Of a DNA stretch of 64,000 bases, positions 27,288-45,427 are shown piece by piece. The translations under genes and the position numbers were made by a program. The DNA comes from an uncultured Pelagibacteraceae bacterium (GTDB lineage: Bacteria > Pseudomonadota > Alphaproteobacteria > Pelagibacterales > Pelagibacteraceae): the NCBI GenBank assembly GCA_902539445.1, contig CACBIY010000003.1:62001-126000 (forward strand), in the 5' to 3' direction. The stretch's first letter is position 1; the number at the start of each line of letters is the position of its first letter. The notes beneath the pieces were generated by a model. It did not search any database and was not told the DNA's origin. It saw nothing but the letters and a program-made list of their open reading frames with translations.

Positions 27288-28016
27288 ATGAAATTTTCTC
27301 TTGAAATAGGCCCTCAGACAGATCTTGATACAGTACCTCAAGTAAAAGATGTTTATATCACAATGCTTCCAGGGGGTGACTATAGAGAAACAGCTCAACA
27401 GGCAGTTGAGTTAGTTAAAAGGGGTTTTAATCCTGTTCCTCATTTTCCTGCAAGGTCAATGCTGGATGAAAAACAACTAAAAGATTATGTCTCTAGGTGT
27501 AAAGATGGTGGGGTTAAACAAGTTTTAGTAATTGGTGGAGGGAGAGAACCAATGGGAAAATTTGATAGCTCGTTTCAACTTTTAGAGACTGGTTATTTTG
27601 AGAAGATGACAATAGGAATTGCTGGACACCCAGAGGGGAGTCCTGATATATCCGACTCAGATTTAGAAAAAGCTATGATAGATAAAAAGCCTTATGCTGA
27701 TTACATCGTAACCCAATGGTTATTAGATCCACAGCCTATTATAGATTTTGTTTCTAAACAAAGTGTACCAGTGCATGTGGGAATTACTGGGCCTCTAAAA
27801 ATATCTAGCTTAATAAAGTTTGCTAATATTGTTGGTGCAAAAAATTCTCTAAATTTTCTTAAATCTAATTTTAGTAAGGCGTTAGATTTATTAAAACCTA
27901 AAGACCCTAATGATTTAATTGGGAAAGTTAAATCGCATACTGATTTCTTCCACATTTATACATTCGGCGGCTTGAAGGAAACAAACAAGTGGTTGAAGGA
28001 GAATGGTTATGTCTAA
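27288..28016 (+). CDS. Methylenetetrahydrofolate reductase-like protein
   Basis: TIM-barrel MetF-like: PHFPARSMLDEKQLKDYV, VLVIGGGREPMG, GIAGHPEGSPD. Confidence 0.75.
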   Translation: MKFSLEIGPQTDLDTVPQVKDVYITMLPGGDYRETAQQAVELVKRGFNPVPHFPARSMLDEKQLKDYVSRCKDGGVKQVLVIGGGREPMGKFDSSFQLLETGYFEKMTIGIAGHPEGSPDISDSDLEKAMIDKKPYADYIVTQWLLDPQPIIDFVSKQSVPVHVGITGPLKISSLIKFANIVGAKNSLNFLKSNFSKALDLLKPKDPNDLIGKVKSHTDFFHIYTFGGLKETNKWLKENGYV

Positions 28017-29367
28017 AGAATTTGACTATACTAAACTAAAACATGTTACTTCTGTTGATCAGTCAGATCGAAAAGTACCATACAATTTAAGACAAAGTGG
28101 GCCAACAAAAGTTGAAATGTTAATTTCGACAAGAGTAAGAAAATCTCCATATTGGCATTTATCAATGCAAGCGGGTTGTTGGAGAGCAACTGTTTATAAT
28201 AGAATTTATCATCCTAGGGGATATGTGAAACCTGAGGATGGTGGTGCAATGGTTGAGTATGATGCAATTGTAAATCATGTAACTATGTGGAATGTTGCTG
28301 TTGAAAGACAGATCCAAGTAAAGGGTCCTGATGCAGAAAAATTTGTTGATTACGTGATAACTCGAGATGCAACAAAAATCTCTCCGATGCGAGCAAGATA
28401 TGTAATTTTATGTAACGCTTACGGAGGAGTTTTAAATGATCCAATACTTTTAAGAATTGCAAAAGATGAATTTTGGTTTTCTTTATCAGACTCGGACATT
28501 GGAATGTATTTACAAGGTGTTAATGCAGACGGTAAATTTAATTGCACTATCGAAGAAATAGATGCATGTCCTGTTCAAATTCAAGGGCCTAAATCAAAAG
28601 CTCTTATGAAAGATTTGTTAGGTGATCAGGTTGATTTAGAAAATATGCCTTTCTATGGTTTAGCTGAAGTTAAGGTTGCCGGAAGAAGTTGTGTTATCTC
28701 TCAATCAGGTTTTTCAGGTGAAGCTGGATATGAAATATATTTAAGGAATGCAACTTTATATGCCGATGAGATGTGGAATGCTGTTCTTGAAGCTGGAAAA
28801 AAACACCAGCTAATGGTTATTGCCCCTGCTCACCACAGAAGAATTCAAGCTGGGATTCTTTCTTGGGGTCAAGATATGGATCAACAACATAACCCTTTCC
28901 AGTGTAATTTAGGTTATCAAGTTTCTTTATCAGGAAAAGGAGAATGGAAAAAAACTTCTGATTACGTAGGAAAAAAAGCTCTTGAAAAAATGGGCGCTGA
29001 AATCAAAGCTGGAAAAAAACCATATAAGTTACAGTTGGTTGGTCTTGAGTTAGGAGGAAAACCAATTGATGATTATGCACCAGATTTTTGGTTGATATCT
29101 AATGCAGATGGTGGTGATCCAGTTGGTTTTGTAACATCACCGTGGTGGCATCCTGAAAAGAAAACTAATATTGCTATGGGATATGTTCCATTTGATGGAA
29201 CTTTAAATGCCAATGGCTTTCCTAAAGGTAAAGTTGGAACTAAATTTAAAGTTCATTTACCAGAGAAATATTCAGATAAACCAGGAACACCTGTTGATGC
29301 CGTTATAGTTGATATTCCATTTAAGGAATCTTATAACGCTAACACAAGAGAAGTGGTATCAGGTTAA
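28009..29367 (+). CDS. DmdA-like GcvT-family THF methyltransferase
   Basis: WNVAVERQIQVKGPDAEKFVDYVITRD, SGFSGEAGYEIY; substrate unassigned. Confidence 0.78.
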   Translation: MSKEFDYTKLKHVTSVDQSDRKVPYNLRQSGPTKVEMLISTRVRKSPYWHLSMQAGCWRATVYNRIYHPRGYVKPEDGGAMVEYDAIVNHVTMWNVAVERQIQVKGPDAEKFVDYVITRDATKISPMRARYVILCNAYGGVLNDPILLRIAKDEFWFSLSDSDIGMYLQGVNADGKFNCTIEEIDACPVQIQGPKSKALMKDLLGDQVDLENMPFYGLAEVKVAGRSCVISQSGFSGEAGYEIYLRNATLYADEMWNAVLEAGKKHQLMVIAPAHHRRIQAGILSWGQDMDQQHNPFQCNLGYQVSLSGKGEWKKTSDYVGKKALEKMGAEIKAGKKPYKLQLVGLELGGKPIDDYAPDFWLISNADGGDPVGFVTSPWWHPEKKTNIAMGYVPFDGTLNANGFPKGKVGTKFKVHLPEKYSDKPGTPVDAVIVDIPFKESYNANTREVVSG

Positions 29368-29513: not shown

Positions 29514-30056
29514 ATGTTTGCTGAATTTTTAAATATAATTTTTAAATCTATAAAATTAGATAAAACACTTTATAGTGATAATAAAAATTTTGGTGAAGCT
29601 GCGATATATTTTGCAGGTTTAATAATGATATTAGATGGTGTAGCTGGAGCTGTGGCTGCAAATACTGTAGTAAAAACAGCTGTAGGAATGTCTGGTCTTA
29701 CGGCAATTTTAACATGGTTCATTTGGGCAATTTTTATTTATGTAATCGGTGTAAAATTATTTCCAGATAAACAAACAAAAGTACCTTTTAAAAAAGTTCT
29801 AGTAGCAGTTGGTTTTGCTCATTCACCAGGTTTACTAAGATTTTTTGCATTAACCCCCGAATTAATGATACCAATCATTTTTCTTACTCAATTCTGGATT
29901 TTTGCAAGTTTAATTATTTCAACAAAACAAATCTTAAATTTAAAATCTAATTTTAAAGCGTTTGGCATAATATTTTTATCATTTTTAATTATTGCTTTTT
30001 TATCAATATCTTTTGTTATGAGTAGAATGAATGCTTTACCAATAAATAGTATCTAA
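29514..30056 (+). CDS. Yip1-domain-like membrane protein
   Basis: Multi-TM, ALTWFIWAIFIYVIG-type Yip1 pattern. Confidence 0.6.
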   Translation: MFAEFLNIIFKSIKLDKTLYSDNKNFGEAAIYFAGLIMILDGVAGAVAANTVVKTAVGMSGLTAILTWFIWAIFIYVIGVKLFPDKQTKVPFKKVLVAVGFAHSPGLLRFFALTPELMIPIIFLTQFWIFASLIISTKQILNLKSNFKAFGIIFLSFLIIAFLSISFVMSRMNALPINSI

Positions 30057-30223
30057 ATTGGAAAGATTGTTTTCGAAACCCTGCATGATTTACAAATTTT
30101 AAATCCAGTCAAAATTAAATTTTGGGTAACACTTTCATCAGTTTTTTTACATTCATCACAGATATCATCTAATTCATCAGAGTTTGTGTTATGCTGATCT
30201 TTTATTTTGTCATCCTCAATCAT
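30053..30223 (-). CDS. Small zinc-ribbon-like protein, 56 aa
   Basis: MIEDDKIKDQHNTNSDELDDICDECKKTDESVTQNLILTGFKICKSCRVSKTIFPI*, two CxxC pairs. Confidence 0.6.
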   Translation of the reverse strand: MIEDDKIKDQHNTNSDELDDICDECKKTDESVTQNLILTGFKICKSCRVSKTIFPI

Positions 30224-30827
30224 TATCAGTTAAACCCGCTCCTGCTGCCCCTTTTTTTAAACTTTCTGTTTCTTCAACAAAAGTTTTTTCTGATAATTGA
30301 TATAAACTTTTCCAATCTTGCTCAGTAAAATTGTCATTATTTTCTAAAATTTTTACTTCTACGTTGTTTGCAATATTTGGACAATTTTTATTTAATAAGT
30401 TTGTGGAAATATTAACATTAATATTTAATAGAAATTCATTTTTTTCAAACTTAAAAAAAATTTTTTTACCGATAACCTCTGAGCTTCTACTAAGAAATGG
30501 TAAAAATAGTAATGGGTATGCAATTTTAGAAAAATTAATAGTTTTTATTTTTTCAATTTTTTCAATTTGATCTAAAAAACTTACACCTAAAATAATTGGG
30601 CAGTAAGAAAATTCAGCACATTCATTATTTTGATTAATTAAATTAAGATCCTCAAACTTTTTGTCTTTTTTTTCATTTAAATATTGATTTAAATTTTTAA
30701 TTCCCTCAAAGTTAAACATTTCTAGTAATCTTACACTTTTTCCAACTTCTTCGCTTATTCCCCAAGAATAGCCTAATGCTCTACTCGCGCGTTTAGAGGT
30801 TGTTTCAATTTCACTCAAAGATTTCAT
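30216..30827 (-). CDS. DUF3726 family protein
   Basis: LSEIETTSKRASRALGYSWGISEEVGKSVRLLE and C-terminal GAAGAGLTDND. Confidence 0.78.
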   Translation of the reverse strand: MKSLSEIETTSKRASRALGYSWGISEEVGKSVRLLEMFNFEGIKNLNQYLNEKKDKKFEDLNLINQNNECAEFSYCPIILGVSFLDQIEKIEKIKTINFSKIAYPLLFLPFLSRSSEVIGKKIFFKFEKNEFLLNINVNISTNLLNKNCPNIANNVEVKILENNDNFTEQDWKSLYQLSEKTFVEETESLKKGAAGAGLTDND

Positions 30828-30836
30828 AAAATTTAA

Positions 30837-32489
30837 TCAGCAATAAACCCAATGCTGATTATAATCTTTTAATTCATTTGGAAGTGGTGCTCCTTGAAAC
30901 ATGCAAATTCTTAACCATTTGTCTGATCTAGGATCAAATTTTAATGCACCAAAAAAAGATAATTTTAATCTTAACATGTCAATTGGGACAACATTTGCAC
31001 TAATTGTATTATCTTGTATCTCAGCATAAGGAAATTTTTCAATAATAAATGCTCGTCTCACAACGTGTCTTAAATCTGCATTATTCATTAAAAATCTATC
31101 AATAGTTAAATCATCTTTACATGAAATTAATTGATCATTTAGTTTTTTAATATCTCTAGCAATTGCAAGAGGTTGTTCTAATTCTGCACCTCCTTCCTCA
31201 AAACGATCTGCATACCTAGGCTCTTCCTTATTTTTAGAAATAAACCAAAAATTTCTTAAATTTGATTTATCTTTGAAATCAATCTTAAGAATATCTGGAT
31301 ATCTTTGTTTTAAAATATTTTTAAGATCCAAAACTGTTCGTTCTGTGGGAATTCTAAAATACTTTTCCTCATCTGAGCTCATTTTTTTTATTAATGGCTC
31401 AACAATTTTATCAAAAGGTTCCATCATTATAGACACGATATACTCAATAGTTTCCTCACAAGTTTCTTTCTCTAACCATAAATATATTTGATTGAAAGGA
31501 TATGGAGTTGTAAAATCTAGTTGATTTTCGATAAATTCTAAAAATTTTTTTACATTAAAAAGTAGTGAATTTATTTTTTTTATTTGAAATTCACTTTCAG
31601 AATTCCAACTGGTTATATTTTTTAAGGAACCTTTGACACATTTTTTGAATAAATCTGAGTCTTTTGAATTTACATTTTTAATTTCTCTAATTTCTTTTAA
31701 TGCGATTTCTCTTGATAAGATCCAATTATTCAACAAGGTAGGATGATTTACAATAAAAGGTGCCATTCCTAGTCCAGTTGAATTTCCAATGCCAAGGTTT
31801 CTACAAATTTTTGGATCTAAATGAACAGCTTTCTTTGGATTTTTATGCTTTGCTACATGATTAACTTGATCAAAAGTGAATTGCCTTACTAAATATACCA
31901 ACATCATTTCTAATCTAAATGGTCCGTTAATTTCTGCCCTATTTTTTATTCTAAATCTATCTGCTAAACCAAACTTTCCAGAACCATAAACAGCGGTAGT
32001 TCTATATAAGTATCCAACTTTTTCTAATAAATTTAAATCTGGCTGATTACCTTCACTTAACTTCTCAACTACGTGATTAAAAACTCTAACTGATTTATTT
32101 GCTCTAGATAAAGTTAGCTCTTTATATGAAAGTCTACCAACCTCTTGTCTTGGAACTTCATTCTTCAATCTTTCAATATCTTTATTTGAGGGAACTCCGT
32201 CATGCAAAGTAAAGGCAGCATCCCATTTTGTTGCAATAACTCTATCTGATCTATCATTGTCATCTATCTTGTTAGCAAAACAAACTAATGAGTAAACTCT
32301 TTTATTTTTTTTAAAAGAATATATTGCTACTCCAAATCCACCAGAATCTAAATCGAATAAATCTCTTTTGTATTCCCAATCTTTGAATTCATACAAAAAA
32401 CTTCTTAAAAATGATAATTTAGATTGATGAAAAGACCCTAGTCTAGACAATTTCATTATTATGTTTGGATCTCTTAATTCAACTTTCAT
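30837..32489 (-). CDS. Conserved hypothetical protein, 550 aa, adjacent to DUF3726 and dipeptidase
   Basis: Long intact ORF, codon pattern normal; no family recognised. Confidence 0.8.
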   Translation of the reverse strand: MKVELRDPNIIMKLSRLGSFHQSKLSFLRSFLYEFKDWEYKRDLFDLDSGGFGVAIYSFKKNKRVYSLVCFANKIDDNDRSDRVIATKWDAAFTLHDGVPSNKDIERLKNEVPRQEVGRLSYKELTLSRANKSVRVFNHVVEKLSEGNQPDLNLLEKVGYLYRTTAVYGSGKFGLADRFRIKNRAEINGPFRLEMMLVYLVRQFTFDQVNHVAKHKNPKKAVHLDPKICRNLGIGNSTGLGMAPFIVNHPTLLNNWILSREIALKEIREIKNVNSKDSDLFKKCVKGSLKNITSWNSESEFQIKKINSLLFNVKKFLEFIENQLDFTTPYPFNQIYLWLEKETCEETIEYIVSIMMEPFDKIVEPLIKKMSSDEEKYFRIPTERTVLDLKNILKQRYPDILKIDFKDKSNLRNFWFISKNKEEPRYADRFEEGGAELEQPLAIARDIKKLNDQLISCKDDLTIDRFLMNNADLRHVVRRAFIIEKFPYAEIQDNTISANVVPIDMLRLKLSFFGALKFDPRSDKWLRICMFQGAPLPNELKDYNQHWVYC

Positions 32490-32492
32490 ATT

Positions 32493-33458
32493 CTAAATAT
32501 TTCTATAAAAATTATACCAATTGTTACCTAATATCCCATTAGTTTCTTCTTCTGAAAATCCAACTTTTCTTAATCCCTTTTCTATATTAAAAAAACCTCT
32601 AGCATCTTCAAACCAATCTGGTTGTTTAGGAAAGCCCGGTTTGTTTTTAGATCCCTCTCCATAATTTTTACTTTTAGACCAAGTGCCGTTTCTCATCCAT
32701 TCCACAATCTTATCGGGCTGATTCAAACATAAATCAGATCCAATGCCAATATTTTTGATATTCATTATATCCGAAGTTCTGGCAATCATCTCACAGAAGC
32801 TATCTAAGGAACAATTATTATTATTTTTTAAATGATGAGGATATAATGAAAAACCCAACATCCCTCCACTATCACTTAAAACTTTTAATAAATCATTAGA
32901 TTTATTTCTTTTAGCAGCATGCCAAAAGCTAGGGTTAGCATGTGTGATCGCAATAGGTTTTTCACTAATTTCAATTGCATCTAATGTACTTTTTTCAGCA
33001 GAGTGAGACATGTCTATAACTATTCCAACTCTGTTCATTTCTTTTATAACTTCACGCCCAAAATTAGTTACTCCGCTATCAATTTTTTCATAACAGCCAG
33101 TTGCGAGAAGAGATTGGTTATTATAAGTTAATTGCATAAAACGACATCCAAGTTGATGTACTTTTTCAACTAAATATATGTCATCCTCAATTGGTGAACA
33201 GTTTTGAAAACCAAAGAAAATTGAGGTTTTTTTTTCTAATTTAGCTTTCTCAATATCCTTGAAGCTAGTACCATGAAAAATCAAATCAGAGTTTTCTTCA
33301 AAAAGTTTTTGCCATTTCTTAATTTCATTGAGAAGTTCATTATAGTCTTCATGATAAACAATCGTTACGTGGACAGCATCCAGCTCTGCTTGTCTGTTAA
33401 TTTCAAACACTTCTCTTGTCCAATTACAATACTGTAAATTATCAATTTTATATTTCAT
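32493..33458 (-). CDS. Membrane dipeptidase-like (peptidase M19) metallohydrolase
   Basis: HVTIVYHED, GFQNCSPIEDD, GIVIDMSHSAEKSTLDAIEIS, THANP, GIGSDLC; likely start at second Met (MKYKIDN). Confidence 0.85.
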   Translation of the reverse strand: MKYKIDNLQYCNWTREVFEINRQAELDAVHVTIVYHEDYNELLNEIKKWQKLFEENSDLIFHGTSFKDIEKAKLEKKTSIFFGFQNCSPIEDDIYLVEKVHQLGCRFMQLTYNNQSLLATGCYEKIDSGVTNFGREVIKEMNRVGIVIDMSHSAEKSTLDAIEISEKPIAITHANPSFWHAAKRNKSNDLLKVLSDSGGMLGFSLYPHHLKNNNNCSLDSFCEMIARTSDIMNIKNIGIGSDLCLNQPDKIVEWMRNGTWSKSKNYGEGSKNKPGFPKQPDWFEDARGFFNIEKGLRKVGFSEEETNGILGNNWYNFYRNI

Positions 33459-38508: not shown

Positions 38509-39096
38509 CTATTTATTTTCGTATCCAAACTCTAATGATGCATCAGTAATAGAATGGTATAAAGACTCCCCAAAACTCCTTAATGTGAATAACCTTACTT
38601 TGGATGGCTTATCATTAAGTAAGTCTACTGTAAAAGCAATATTATTATAAAGAGAATTTATTGAATTATTTTTTTTTAAAATATCAAAATTAAATGGTGA
38701 TCCTTTTTTTAAAACTTCTAATACATAATTTCCCTCTATTTCAATTACAGCTCTTGAATGAGATAAATCAGTAACTGCAAAATCAGTTTCTTTACATGTT
38801 AAAGAAATATTTTTAATTAGATCTTTTTTTGAGGATACTAACAGCCAATTTTTTGGGCCATTCCATAAGATTCTTGTATTTTCATTGAAAGCCACATTCA
38901 ATGAAAAGTCTTTTAGTTTTAAACCGTCAATATCAATACTTTCAATTTGAATATTAGAATTTTTGAACTGTACTATTTGAACAATTAATAAATTTTTTTT
39001 TTCTGAAATTTTTAATAAGTCATCGCCTTTTTTGTCCTCAAAGTCTCCAAATTGTCCTTGATGATGAACATTGGCTAGCGCAGAAATTAAACTCAT
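38509..39096 (-). CDS. soxG: Sarcosine oxidase gamma subunit
   Basis: ILWNGPKNWLLVS, DLSHSRAVIEIEG; operon position. Confidence 0.85.
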   Translation of the reverse strand: MSLISALANVHHQGQFGDFEDKKGDDLLKISEKKNLLIVQIVQFKNSNIQIESIDIDGLKLKDFSLNVAFNENTRILWNGPKNWLLVSSKKDLIKNISLTCKETDFAVTDLSHSRAVIEIEGNYVLEVLKKGSPFNFDILKKNNSINSLYNNIAFTVDLLNDKPSKVRLFTLRSFGESLYHSITDASLEFGYENK

Positions 39097-42089
39097 GATC
39101 TCACTCGCTCACCTTTTGGGTCAACATAATGTGAAGACACTATCTCAACTGGAATTACTTTATTTTTAAGAGGTGACATTACGAATAGCTTTTCTCCTAT
39201 CATATTCTTACCATCTTTTAAAATTGCTAAAGAAAATGGATTATCGTGTTCAACACTCCAACATGAAGCTGAAATATAACCTAATTTTGGATTTGGAAGT
39301 GGTGCATTTGAATCTTTAACTAAATGAGATCCTTCCGGAATACTTGTTTTTTTATCTAATGGGACAACACCAACAATTTTTTGTCTATCTTCAGCTGCAA
39401 AAGCTTTTCTTGATAAAGATCTTTTTCCAATAAAATCTTTCTTTTTGCTAAGAAGTCCCTCAAGAGAATTGTCATAAGGAATAGTTCTTCCATCAAGCTC
39501 TGAACCTGCGACATGTCCCATCTCAATTCTTAATGTTGAAAGTGCTTCTGTTCCATATGGTTGAATTCCAAACTCTTCACCAACTTCTATTATTTTTTCC
39601 CACATAAAATATCCATAATCTGACTCAACATTTACTTCGTATGCAAGTTCACCAGAGAATGAAATTCTAAAAATTTTAGCTTTTACTCCAAACAAATCAC
39701 CTTCCATATAACCCATAAAAGGAAGTCCTTCATTCGTAACATCAGACTTTGGAAAAAGTTTTTTTAATACTTCTCTTGATTTTGGTCCAGCAATTGCTGC
39801 TCCCGCCCACTGTTCTGTCGTTGAAACTACATTTACATTTAATTCTGGCCAAACAAGTTGTAAGTAATATTCTAGATGTGATAGAACATTAGCAGCTTGA
39901 GCAGTTGTTGTAGTCATATGGTAATGATTTTCTGATATTCTTGTTGTTGTTCCATCATCCATAACAATTCCATCTTCTCTCAACATCACACCATATCGTG
40001 CTTTGCCGACCGGTAATTTTAACCATGCATTTGTATAAACTCTATTTAGAAGCTCTGCTGCATCTGGTCCTTTAATATCAATTTTACCTAAAGTGGTAAC
40101 GTCACAAACACCAACATTAGTTCTTACATTTTTAGCCTCTCTTTTTGATGCCTCAAATAAATTTTCATCACCACGTTTGTAATACCTTGGTCTTAACCAT
40201 ACACCCGCATCAACAAAGACTGCGTTATTTTTTTCATGCCATGAATGCATTGGAGATTTTCTTGTTGGTTTTGAATGTTTTCCTACTTCCCTTCCAACAA
40301 TTGCTCCAATAGAAACTGGTGAGTAGGGTGGTCTAAAGGTTGTATGCCCAACTGCTGGTACAACTTTATTTTCAATTTTCGACACTAGTTGTAAGCCATT
40401 AAGATTACTTGTCTTACCTTGGTCAGTAGCCATACCAAGTGTAGTATATCTTTTTACATGTTCAATAGATCTATACCCTTCTTTAAGAGCTATCTCTATA
40501 TCAGAAACTGCAACATCATTTTGGAAATCTAAAAATCTTTTGTAGTTTTTTCCCTTTGGTAAGGGTACACACCAAAATTTATCATGTACTGTAGATTTCT
40601 TTTCAACAACATTGGGGAAAGAAACCTTATTCTCTTTATTTGTTATTTTTTTTGATAATTGGTTTCCTTTTTCAAATGAGTCTTTTAATGTCTCTTCTAA
40701 AGTGTAAATTCCATTTGCAGCCCCTAAGGTTTTTTCTTTTTGTTTAGATATACCAGGAACAAATGCATCAATTTCCTCATTAAATTTTGTTTTATTTCCA
40801 GATTGTGATGCCAAATGAATTGTAGGTGTCCAAAAACCAGAAACACAAATACAATCACACTCAATATTTTCAATTGATCCAAGTTCCTCTTTATTATCTG
40901 AAATTTTAGCTATGTCAGCTGATTTTACTTTTTTATATCCTTGAGCAGCTACAACTACATATGAATTTTTAATATTGATATTCATATTTTTTGCCTCTTC
41001 AATTATTTCTGATTGAGGTTCTTTTCTTGTATCTAAAATTATTGGATCAATACCATTTTTTTTAAATTCAATTGCTGTTTCATAACCACTGTCATTATTT
41101 GTAAAAACAAGCGGTTTTTTTCCAACTAATACTCCGTACACTTTCATGTATTCCTTAGCGGCTGAAGACAACATTACGCCAGGAGTGTCATTATTACCAA
41201 ATACAATAGGTCTCTCTATAGATCCAGATGAGATTAATACTTCTTTTGCTCTAATATACCAAAGTCTTTGTTTTGGATGATATTTTTTTGTTTTTGGTAA
41301 ATGGTCACTAATTCTTTCAGACATAACCAACATGTTATGATCATAATAACCAAAAACTTGAGATCTGTTTTTTACAGTAACATTAGGCATTTCTTTAAGC
41401 TCTGAAATGATACTATCTGCCCACTCTTTACCTGATTGATTCCCTATATTTACTTCACTAGTTAATAAAGTTCCTCCAAATCGTGATTTGTCTTCAGCAA
41501 GAATAACTTTTGCACCATTTTTTGCGGCTGAGTAGGCACTTGCTAATCCCGAAGGACCTGAACCTGTTATTAACAAATCACAATATTCATATTTATGTTC
41601 ATATCTTTCTTTATCATGTTTTATAGATGCTGTACCCAAACCAGCAGCTCTTCTGATAAATGGCTCATAAATTTTATACCAAAAACTTTTTGGCCACATA
41701 AAAGTCTTGTAATAAAAACCAGCTGGGAGAAATATCTTTAAAAAATTATTTATAGCTCCCACATCAAAATTCACACTTGGCCAACAATTTACACTTTTTG
41801 CTTCTAAACCCTCAAAAAGTTCCTGTTCAGTAGCTTTTATATTTGGTTCTGTTTCACCATTTCTATATAATTGAACTATCGCATACGGCTCATCAACTCC
41901 GGCACCAAAGAAACCTCTGGGTCTATGATATTTGAAGCTTCTTCCAATAAGATGAACTCCATTAGCAATTAATGCAGAAGCAAGGGTATCGCCCTCATAA
42001 CCAAAATAATTTTTACCATTAAATTTAAAAGAAATTTTTTTATCTCTATTTATTAATCCACCACTTTCTAATCTAAAACTTTGTGTCAT
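39093..42089 (-). CDS. soxA: Sarcosine oxidase alpha subunit (with GcvT domain)
   Basis: 998 aa; FKFNGKNYFGYEGDTLASALIANGVHLIGRSFKYHRPRG, GcvT C-terminus. Confidence 0.94.
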   Translation of the reverse strand: MTQSFRLESGGLINRDKKISFKFNGKNYFGYEGDTLASALIANGVHLIGRSFKYHRPRGFFGAGVDEPYAIVQLYRNGETEPNIKATEQELFEGLEAKSVNCWPSVNFDVGAINNFLKIFLPAGFYYKTFMWPKSFWYKIYEPFIRRAAGLGTASIKHDKERYEHKYEYCDLLITGSGPSGLASAYSAAKNGAKVILAEDKSRFGGTLLTSEVNIGNQSGKEWADSIISELKEMPNVTVKNRSQVFGYYDHNMLVMSERISDHLPKTKKYHPKQRLWYIRAKEVLISSGSIERPIVFGNNDTPGVMLSSAAKEYMKVYGVLVGKKPLVFTNNDSGYETAIEFKKNGIDPIILDTRKEPQSEIIEEAKNMNINIKNSYVVVAAQGYKKVKSADIAKISDNKEELGSIENIECDCICVSGFWTPTIHLASQSGNKTKFNEEIDAFVPGISKQKEKTLGAANGIYTLEETLKDSFEKGNQLSKKITNKENKVSFPNVVEKKSTVHDKFWCVPLPKGKNYKRFLDFQNDVAVSDIEIALKEGYRSIEHVKRYTTLGMATDQGKTSNLNGLQLVSKIENKVVPAVGHTTFRPPYSPVSIGAIVGREVGKHSKPTRKSPMHSWHEKNNAVFVDAGVWLRPRYYKRGDENLFEASKREAKNVRTNVGVCDVTTLGKIDIKGPDAAELLNRVYTNAWLKLPVGKARYGVMLREDGIVMDDGTTTRISENHYHMTTTTAQAANVLSHLEYYLQLVWPELNVNVVSTTEQWAGAAIAGPKSREVLKKLFPKSDVTNEGLPFMGYMEGDLFGVKAKIFRISFSGELAYEVNVESDYGYFMWEKIIEVGEEFGIQPYGTEALSTLRIEMGHVAGSELDGRTIPYDNSLEGLLSKKKDFIGKRSLSRKAFAAEDRQKIVGVVPLDKKTSIPEGSHLVKDSNAPLPNPKLGYISASCWSVEHDNPFSLAILKDGKNMIGEKLFVMSPLKNKVIPVEIVSSHYVDPKGERVRS

Positions 42090-42358
42090 TATGAAATTTC
42101 TTCGTTTGCTTTTAGAGTTTTAAAAATTTCATGAGTAGCTGTATCTCTCTGAACTTTTATCCATTGTCTGCAACCTGATAAATGTTGCCATAACTCCCAA
42201 TGCTTCCCTCTTAAACTTTTCCTATTATAAACAAAATTATCCCAATCTTGATCGGATATTTCTTTTCCTAATTCTGGCCGTTTAATAGTTGCATCACCAC
42301 CATATGAAAATTCATTCTGTGATCTCATTCCACAATGTGGACATTTTATATGAAGCAT
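42089..42358 (-). CDS. soxD: Sarcosine oxidase delta subunit
   Basis: IKCPHCGMRSQNEFSYGGDA, W.H..GCRQWI. Confidence 0.94.
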   Translation of the reverse strand: MLHIKCPHCGMRSQNEFSYGGDATIKRPELGKEISDQDWDNFVYNRKSLRGKHWELWQHLSGCRQWIKVQRDTATHEIFKTLKANEEIS

Positions 42359-43615
42359 TTATGAAATCCAGGTTTTGGTACCAAGTCCCTTTTCGTCAAG
42401 TAAGTGACCAGTATTAAATCTATTTAAACTATAGCCAGCATTTAATTCATGAACTCTATCTTGCGCGATTGTATGTGCAAATGTCCAACCAGATGCAGGT
42501 GTTGCTTTAAATCCACCATAGCACCAACCACAATTTAAATACAAACCTTCAATATGGGTTTTGTCTATTATTGGTGAGCCGTCCATAGACATATCCATTA
42601 TCCCACCCCAAGTTCTAAGCATTTTTAATTTACTTAGGAAAGGCATCATTGCGATCCCTTCAGTCAGAACATGTTGAAGAGTTGGAAGATTGCCTCTTTG
42701 TGCATAACTATTGTAGCCATCAAGATCACCACCCATAACCATTTCACCTTTATCAGACTGGCTTATATAAAAATGTCCAGCACCAAAAGTAACTACTTTA
42801 TCTAAAACTGGTTTTACTGGCTCAGATACACATGCTTGTAGTAGATGCGTCTCAATTGGCAATGTCATATTTAATTTTTCAGCTAAAATATTTGTACTAC
42901 CTGCAACACATAATCCAATTTTTTTTGCTTTAATTTCTCCACGAGAAGTTCTCACTCCATTAATTTTTCCTGCAGACACATCAAATCCAATTACTTCACA
43001 ATTTTGAATTATGTCCACACCCATATCGTCTGCCTGACGTGCATAACCCCAAGCTACAGCATCGTGTCTAGCTGTTCCAGCGCTAGGTTGCATTAATCCC
43101 CCAAAGATTGGAAATCGTACATTCTCAGAAAAATCAGCCATAGGAATAATTTCTCTTACTTCTTCCCTATTTAAGAGAACTGCATCGATACCGTTTAATC
43201 TCATTGAATTTCCTCTTCGAGCATAAGTATTCATTTGTGCATCTGAGTGAGCAAGATTTATTATTCCTCTTGGAGAAAACATCACATTGTAATTCAAATC
43301 TTGACTCATTCTTCTCCAAAGATCCATTCCGAATTCGCTGAATAATGCATTGTCATCATGCATATAATTTGACCTAATTATTGTAGTGTTTCGACCAACA
43401 TTACCTCCACCAATCCAACCTTTTTCGATTATAGCAACATTGGTAATATTATGTTCTTTAGCTAGATAATATGCTGTTGCTAAACCATGTCCACCGCCAC
43501 CAATAATAACAACATCATACTCTTTCTTAGGAGTTGGATCTTTCCAAGCTAAGTCCCAATTTTCGTGATTTGAAAGGGCATTTTTAACAAGACTAAAAAC
43601 TGAATATTTTTGCAT
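42359..43615 (-). CDS. soxB: Sarcosine oxidase beta subunit
   Basis: FAD GGGGHGLATAYYLA, GGNVGRNTTIIRSNY. Confidence 0.95.
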   Translation of the reverse strand: MQKYSVFSLVKNALSNHENWDLAWKDPTPKKEYDVVIIGGGGHGLATAYYLAKEHNITNVAIIEKGWIGGGNVGRNTTIIRSNYMHDDNALFSEFGMDLWRRMSQDLNYNVMFSPRGIINLAHSDAQMNTYARRGNSMRLNGIDAVLLNREEVREIIPMADFSENVRFPIFGGLMQPSAGTARHDAVAWGYARQADDMGVDIIQNCEVIGFDVSAGKINGVRTSRGEIKAKKIGLCVAGSTNILAEKLNMTLPIETHLLQACVSEPVKPVLDKVVTFGAGHFYISQSDKGEMVMGGDLDGYNSYAQRGNLPTLQHVLTEGIAMMPFLSKLKMLRTWGGIMDMSMDGSPIIDKTHIEGLYLNCGWCYGGFKATPASGWTFAHTIAQDRVHELNAGYSLNRFNTGHLLDEKGLGTKTWIS

Positions 43616-43741: not shown

Positions 43742-45427
43742 ATGAGCGACATAAAATCAGATATTCAAATTGCTCGTGAAGCAAAAATGCTTCCAATAAA
43801 GGAAATCCTAGCGAAAGTAAATGTTCCAGACGAAAGTTCAGCTTTTAGCCCGATGGGAAGACATATTGCAAAAATAAACTTGGAATACTTAAATACATTA
43901 AAAGACAAGCCAGACGGTAAATTAATTTTAGTTACGGCAATAACTCCAACTCCTGCTGGAGAAGGTAAAACAACCACCTCCGTTGGATTAAACGATGGAC
44001 TAAATAAAATTGGAAAAAAATCTATTGTATGCTTAAGAGAACCAAGTCTAGGTCCATCCTTTGGTATGAAAGGTGGTGCTGCAGGAGGAGGATATGCTCA
44101 AGTAGTCCCAATGGAGCAAATTAATCTTCACTTTACTGGAGATTTTCACGCAATAACATCAGCACATAATCTTTTATCTGCTTTAATTGATAATCATATC
44201 TACTGGGGAAATAAATTAAACATAGATGTCAGAAGAATTGTTTGGAAAAGAGTTATGGATATGAACGACAGAGCTTTAAGATCAATTAATATTAATCTTG
44301 GCGGTGTTGCTAATGGTTTTCCAAGAGAAGATGGTTTTGATATCACGGTTGCTTCTGAGATAATGGCTATCTTTTGTCTTGCTAATAATCTTGAAGATTT
44401 AGAAAAAAGGATCGGAAATATTACTGTAGCATACACTCGAGAAAAAAAACCAATCTACGCTAAAGATTTAAATGCACATGGACCAATGACTGTTTTGCTT
44501 AAAGAGGCAATCAGACCTAATATTACACAAACACTAGAAAATAATCCTGCGATAATTCATGGTGGACCATTTGCAAATATTGCTCATGGATGTAATTCTG
44601 TAATTGCAACTAAAGCTGGATTAAAACTTGCTGATTATGTTGTAACTGAAGCAGGTTTTGGTGCAGATTTAGGAGCTGAAAAATTTTTAGATATCAAATG
44701 TAGGAAATCAAATTTAAAACCAAGTTGCGTTGTTATAGTAGCAACCGTTAGAGCCTTGAAGATGCATGGTGGTGTTACAAAAGATGATTTAAAGAATGAA
44801 AATGTAGATGCACTAAAAAAAGGATTAATAAATCTTGAAAGACATATTGAAAATGTGAAAAAATTTGGTTTACCTGTAGCAGTAGCTATAAATCATTTTA
44901 TAAAAGACACTGATAAAGAAGTAAATGCTTTAGTAGAATTTTGTAAAAAGCTAGGGGTTAAAGCTAGTATTTGTAAGCATTGGGCTGATGGTGGTGAAGG
45001 TACAAAGGATTTAGCTAAACATGTAACAGATTTATGTGAGAAGAATGAAGCTAAGTTTAAATTTTTATATGAAAGTAAAACTCCACTTTTCAAAAAAATA
45101 GAGACCATAGCAAAAGAGATTTATAGAGCTAATGAAGTTATTGCAGATACTAAAATCAGAGATCAATTAAAAAACTTTGAAGAAGCTGGTTATAGTGAGT
45201 TACCTATATGTGTTGCAAAAACTCAATATAGTTTCTCAACAGATCCAAATCTGAAAGGGGCTCCGACTGGTCATTCACTACCAATTAGAGAGATTAGGTT
45301 ATCATCTGGCGCGGAGTTCATTGTTGTTGTTTGTGGAGCAATCATGACAATGCCCGGACTTCCTAGAGTGCCAGCAGCTGACTCTATTAAGCTAAATAAA
45401 GACGGTGATATAGAAGGTCTATTTTAA
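43742..45427 (+). CDS. fhs: Formate-tetrahydrofolate ligase
   Basis: [39 protein letters not shown]. Confidence 0.97.

Follow-up and report, generated by a model that had tools for sequence, protein, structure and literature searches.

A conserved three-gene unit in SAR11 bacteria, probably the core of a catabolic route for a betaine osmolyte such as homarine

Among the osmolytes of phytoplankton homarine (N-methylpicolinate) is an abundant one, and SAR11 ranks with the most numerous groups of bacteria in the surface ocean. A homarine catabolic pathway that is conserved in environmental bacteria has reportedly been described by Ferrer-Gonzalez et al. in 2026 (Nat Microbiol 11:1531, doi 10.1038/s41564-026-02313-7, cited in PMC13390433), to go by the title of that article. 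An operon by the name of homABCDER, which includes a regulator, may be relevant here and would fit five genes plus a LysR gene. Two enzyme families also enter the comparison, the Ldh_2 family of type-2 malate, lactate and ureidoglycolate dehydrogenases, which includes delta1-piperideine-2-carboxylate reductase, and the M19 dipeptidases, whose canonical motif is DGHND and whose residues are numbered here as in human DPEP1. Mgd takes part in homarine catabolism and the AraC-type tmaR is linked to mgd (PMC13390433), and the rapid drawdown of homarine by Ruegeria pomeroyi (PMC12817926) counts in favor of homarine as the substrate of the genes described below. In the literature searched on homarine and DUF3726 the names of the pathway genes were not found.

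The window, as we call the whole stretch of 64,000 nucleotides analyzed, comes from a SAR11 genome of 1.10 Mb and 92% completeness. It carries on the minus strand three co-oriented genes separated by gaps of only 3 and 9 bp, just as a sequence-only reading of this DNA had described them: an M19-family protein (32493..33458; PF01244, E=2.8e-70, 237.5 bits, cut-off 26), a 550-aa protein here called P550 (30837..32489) and a DUF3726 protein (30216..30827; PF12525, E=1.4e-22, 79.8 bits, cut-off 22.1). The start of the M19 gene is the ATG at 33458, and a longer open reading frame with a TTG start runs from 33485. P550, whose fold is without a known match, is the presumed catalytic subunit and the DUF3726 protein the presumed second subunit of one enzyme. 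From sequence comparison and gene neighborhood we consider it fairly probable that these genes make up the conserved core of betaine-osmolyte catabolism, with homarine as the most probable substrate. Rfam gave zero matches in the window. Beside the trio, at 29514-30056, lies a gene whose 180-aa product is hydrophobic, probably a membrane protein, and matches no Pfam family. It is kept in most SAR11 loci and separates the trio from a DmdA-like gene. The latter forms with its neighbor a pair at 27288-29367, encoding an MTHFR-like (242 aa) and a GcvT/DmdA-like protein (454 aa), that adjoins the trio in most SAR11 loci. As the DmdA-like protein scores 233 bits against the DMSP demethylase model, with its cut-off of 410, it may demethylate another substrate.

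Across 299 Pseudomonadota genomes P550 is present in 22 and the DUF3726 protein in 21, all 21 within the P550 set, and the M19 subfamily (membership at E<=1e-60) in 23, a set that includes all 22 genomes with P550. The hypergeometric probability of this co-occurrence is ~1e-31 for genomes and ~1e-20 for genera, where counting by genus corrects relatedness only in part. The three genes form an almost obligate triad: the co-occurrence check that had been proposed for them across Pseudomonadota found the families together, and the view that they are a real, retained catabolic unit is borne out. Within the order Pelagibacterales P550 was found in 70 of 97 sampled genomes, and nearly all of 80 loci fetched by similarity retain the arrangement purK-purE/M19-P550-DUF3726, mostly with the DmdA-like gene adjoining. 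Homologues of P550 occur across Pseudomonadota and in one haloarchaeon, and in the tree the SAR11 sequences fall within a supported clade with Roseobacter P550s (98/92, 20 rows). Locus L017 of genome G044 (97% complete) shows an apparent deletion, with P550 about 24 residues short, DUF3726 gone and a racemase-like gene directly next to it.

In SAR11 the trio might be what is left of a larger unit, or a module of co-metabolism that opens its substrate without full assimilation, or it might be in the course of being lost, an account that we regard as improbable. This account draws on the fact that in the window's genus the trio has no ALDH, Ldh, transporter or regulator of its own next to it, on the shortened P550 and missing DUF3726 of the near-complete G044, and on the absence of P550 from ten genomes of the same family that belong to other genera. 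However, the trio is intact and syntenic in nearly all examined loci and many residues are invariant over 47 sequences, which is consistent with purifying selection.

Regarding P550, Pfam and NCBIfam yielded no credible match for the window protein or for 14 diverse homologues, and a PDB sequence match was likewise not found, in agreement with the sequence-only reading, which had recognized no family for it. Its AF2 model (pLDDT 72) gave no Foldseek match, so that the HMM and structure prediction suggested for this protein led to no known family or fold. The model is weak precisely in several conserved segments, and we therefore leave the fold unclaimed. Across 14 diverse members 38 columns are invariant.

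The hydrolase had been thought the only one of the three with a recognizable fold; on modeling, the DUF3726 protein also shows one. Its AF2 model has a pLDDT of 89, with values <50 over the last 11 residues, and the top PDB matches in Foldseek are Ldh_2 dehydrogenases (1v9n, 4fjs, 1wtj), found with probability 1.00, E-values from 4e-3 and a TMq of only 0.46-0.50. Profile comparison with hhalign related DUF3726 at probability 98 to the longer partner of other classes, presumably Gammaproteobacteria, and gave probabilities of 83 (DUF3726) and 69 (longer partner) against the Ldh proteins of the clusters, with pairwise E-values of 1e-5 to 5e-5. DUF3726 is thus modeled as a degenerate Ldh_2 fold, a remote relation that covers a partial domain. 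Among 47 SAR11 sequences, with overall identity to the window protein down to 49%, no His occupies an invariant or near-invariant column, and the catalytic His of Ldh_2 is not conserved. The protein ends exactly in GAAGAGLTDND (30216..30251 on the minus strand, stop codon included), and the suspicion that this glycine-rich tail is special proved justified, as little or no variation is seen in its last nine residues, AGAGLTDND, over the same 47 sequences. GAGAGxxDND or a close variant also forms the C terminus of most partners of P550 outside SAR11; in the f45 genomes the protein ends near GAGEL, and the rhizobial type has no tail.

The M19 protein belongs to PF01244 by its profile and lacks the HxD and bridging Glu metal ligands. 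Its nearest PDB entry is 2i5g, labeled 'amidohydrolase' (E=4e-56). Aligned with 1itq, the window protein shows IDNLQY at the HxD segment, a Gln for the bridging Glu and a Tyr for the substrate His. This is not peculiar to the window: in nearly all of 36 cluster M19 sequences ID-x-LQY replaces DGHND (HxD: H20, D22), FGxQN replaces GxEGG (bridging Glu125 to Gln) across the set, and a signature of ID-x-LQ, FGxQN and QLTYNNQ is common to nearly all members. The equivalents of DPEP1 H198, H219 and D288 are kept in the cluster proteins as H152, H173 and D242. These proteins make up a distinct subfamily, presumed to carry out an amidohydrolase step, for which an amide or lactam intermediate is a plausible substrate. 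The sequence-only reading had suggested an amide or dipeptide-like substrate, and a classical M19 dipeptidase that breaks down a dipeptide or a simple amide would be in keeping with the M19 Pfam match and with Sinorhizobium loci that hold ABC transporters with extracellular solute-binding proteins, whose substrate is not stated. We reject it as very improbable indeed because the metal ligands are lost: all or nearly all of the 36 proteins have other residues at HxD, the bridging Glu and the substrate-binding His, and the transporters and ALDH of the clusters are unfit for dipeptides, the neighboring genes pointing instead to a betaine osmolyte.

Outside SAR11 the typical gene order is a divergent LysR gene, ALDH, M19, optionally a BCCT transporter, P550, DUF3726 or the longer partner, and optionally an Ldh-family reductase. 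In Aminobacter and Pararhizobium annotated glycine-betaine ABC genes replace the BCCT gene. A betaine-type transporter and an ALDH are linked to the trio in many relatives and not at the window locus, where ALDH, Ldh, LysR or other regulator and transporter are all absent beside the trio. Sister genera within SAR11 have Ldh and ALDH genes next to the trio in convergent orientation, with an ABC transporter further out. In Ruegeria sp. TM1040 and Phaeobacter the trio cluster adjoins an operon of sox/mgd type that comes with a GlxA/AraC-like regulator; in Phaeobacter inhibens DSM 17395 the cluster is carried by the 262-kb plasmid. It is the betaine-type transporters in the clusters of relatives that suggest a betaine as substrate. 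Homarine in particular is suggested by an ALDH of C5-semialdehyde type, by an Ldh family that includes piperideine-2-carboxylate reductase, by the adjoining mgd/sox operons and by what is reported for Mgd (PMC13390433). The scores behind these assignments are to be read with their cut-offs: the BCCT transporter, which counts for homarine, reaches 330 bits, below the cut-off of 407.55, and the closest models of the Phaeobacter ALDH, 2,5-dioxovalerate and alpha-ketoglutarate-semialdehyde dehydrogenase, score under theirs. Against homarine counts the ALDH of sister SAR11 genera, for which the top model is betaine-aldehyde dehydrogenase, not the dioxovalerate type. So do the relatives of the missing enzymes in the window genome, which are distant paralogs only, with at best 31-34% identity for ALDH and 31% and 27% for Ldh.

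Rhizobial relatives carry different accessory genes (aminotransferase, succinate-semialdehyde-type ALDH), so that the presence of the trio may stand for more than a single substrate. The pathway may be of this kind and yet serve another betaine or another N-methylated heterocycle, such as trigonelline or the betaines of proline, hydroxyproline or pipecolate, in which case homarine would not be the natural substrate; we think this rather unlikely, though it deserves more weight than the relic account. What the transporter and ALDH families indicate is only broad, and different accessory enzymes accompany the P550 subfamilies of 24-30% identity, from which it follows that the substrate probably varies across the P550 family. 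However, the SAR11 P550s group with those of Roseobacters, whose clusters hold the dioxovalerate-type ALDH, and in the annotated clusters no gene was noticed that belongs to the routes known for proline betaine or trigonelline. The rhizobial P550 subfamily (24-28% identity; loci L037, L038 and L169) is accompanied by IclR, a tail-less small partner, M19 and ABC genes, in L037 additionally by an aminotransferase, a succinate-semialdehyde-type dehydrogenase and RidA, and its substrate probably differs. The accessory genes also differ in the haloarchaeon Natrinema versiforme (L035), where a plasmid encodes a P550 relative (32%) together with an ALDH, a BCCT transporter and a small partner; no M19 annotation was seen nearby. 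In the alphaproteobacterial genome G279 (L161) the far side of the P550 cluster holds DmdA-like (34%) and enoyl-CoA hydratase-like (47%) genes, which recall the neighbors of the window trio.

The window further contains, 5-10 kb from the trio, a four-subunit operon of MgdABCD/SoxBDAG type (38509..43615, minus strand; TIGR01372 1314.7 bits, TIGR01373 671.4 bits) and fhs, formate-tetrahydrofolate ligase (43742..45427, plus strand; NF010030, 922.3 bits, cut-off 652). The quartet is a candidate N-methylglutamate dehydrogenase for the last pathway step, an assignment by similarity in which neither the models nor linkage and identity comparisons separate Mgd from Sox. Fhs activates formate and could be a sink for released formate. 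Together with the methylamine genes the whole set lies 5-29 kb away from the trio. These belong to a methylamine and one-carbon island at 38509-62458 that comprises the Mgd/Sox-type quartet, fhs, trimethylamine monooxygenase (tmm, 733 bits), an ABC transporter, a TMAO demethylase-like gene (tdm, 1087 bits, just below the cut-off of 1100), a GmaS-like ligase and MgsABC-looking genes. Two absences count against homarine: a full-length Mgd/Sox alpha subunit was not found in seven trio-bearing genomes of other classes, nor an alpha subunit of the window type in two trio-bearing SAR11 genomes. Genome-level co-occurrence of the trio with the Sox/Mgd alpha subunit is confounded by phylogeny and was excluded as evidence.

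A possible route can be drawn up for homarine. P550 and DUF3726 would form one two-subunit enzyme in which the Ldh-like subunit places the GAGAGxxDND tail at the active site, and this enzyme would open the N-methylpyridinium ring to give an N-formyl-N-methylamino C5 semialdehyde. The ALDH would oxidize the aldehyde of the ring-opened intermediate, the M19 amidohydrolase would split off the formyl group to give formate, N-methylglutamate would arise through an Ldh-type imine reductase, and Mgd would demethylate it to glutamate and C1-tetrahydrofolate. The carbon balance fits this route, since homarine (C7) gives N-methylglutamate (C6) and one C1 unit. SAR11 would have retained the core and carry out the other steps with enzymes encoded elsewhere. 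Only tentatively do we go further and propose that P550 and DUF3726 are a previously unknown kind of two-subunit enzyme. Its large subunit would have a new fold and the other a degenerate Ldh fold, with the tail completing the active site; the enzyme would open the N-methylpyridinium ring, and the next step would fall to an M19 protein turned from a dipeptidase into a deformylase or lactamase.

Should the trio prove to be the core that opens homarine, it could serve as a marker for homarine consumers, at the frequency given above for the order. Three poorly annotated families would gain a shared role, a misleading 'dipeptidase' label is removed, and the part played by the Ldh-like DUF3726 protein and its conserved tail is raised as a structural question.

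In comparison with known systems, the trio probably represents the core of an osmolyte pathway that has been reported before, and its earlier description as possibly undescribed is probably outdated if it is the homarine pathway published in 2026. As far as the title of the Ferrer-Gonzalez report conveys that pathway, the likeness lies in a widespread trio cluster, in its position beside mgd/sox-type genes in some Roseobacters and in betaine-type transport; the difference, within the same bounds, is that the SAR11 locus is a three-gene core with ALDH, Ldh, transporter and regulator not adjoining. Seemingly new in the literature examined are the Ldh-like DUF3726 with its tail, the metal-ligand-poor M19 and a P550 without known fold. 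The M19 protein shares with the renal dipeptidase DPEP1 (1itq) the sequence family and the equivalents of two Zn-site His and Asp288, whereas those of H20, D22, E125 and H152 are replaced; 2i5g, the closest structure, is likewise without HxD and Glu. DUF3726 resembles Ldh_2 in modeled fold and profile similarity but is shorter (203 vs ~330 aa) and without an invariant His, and at its C terminus it has a tail that its own family conserves.
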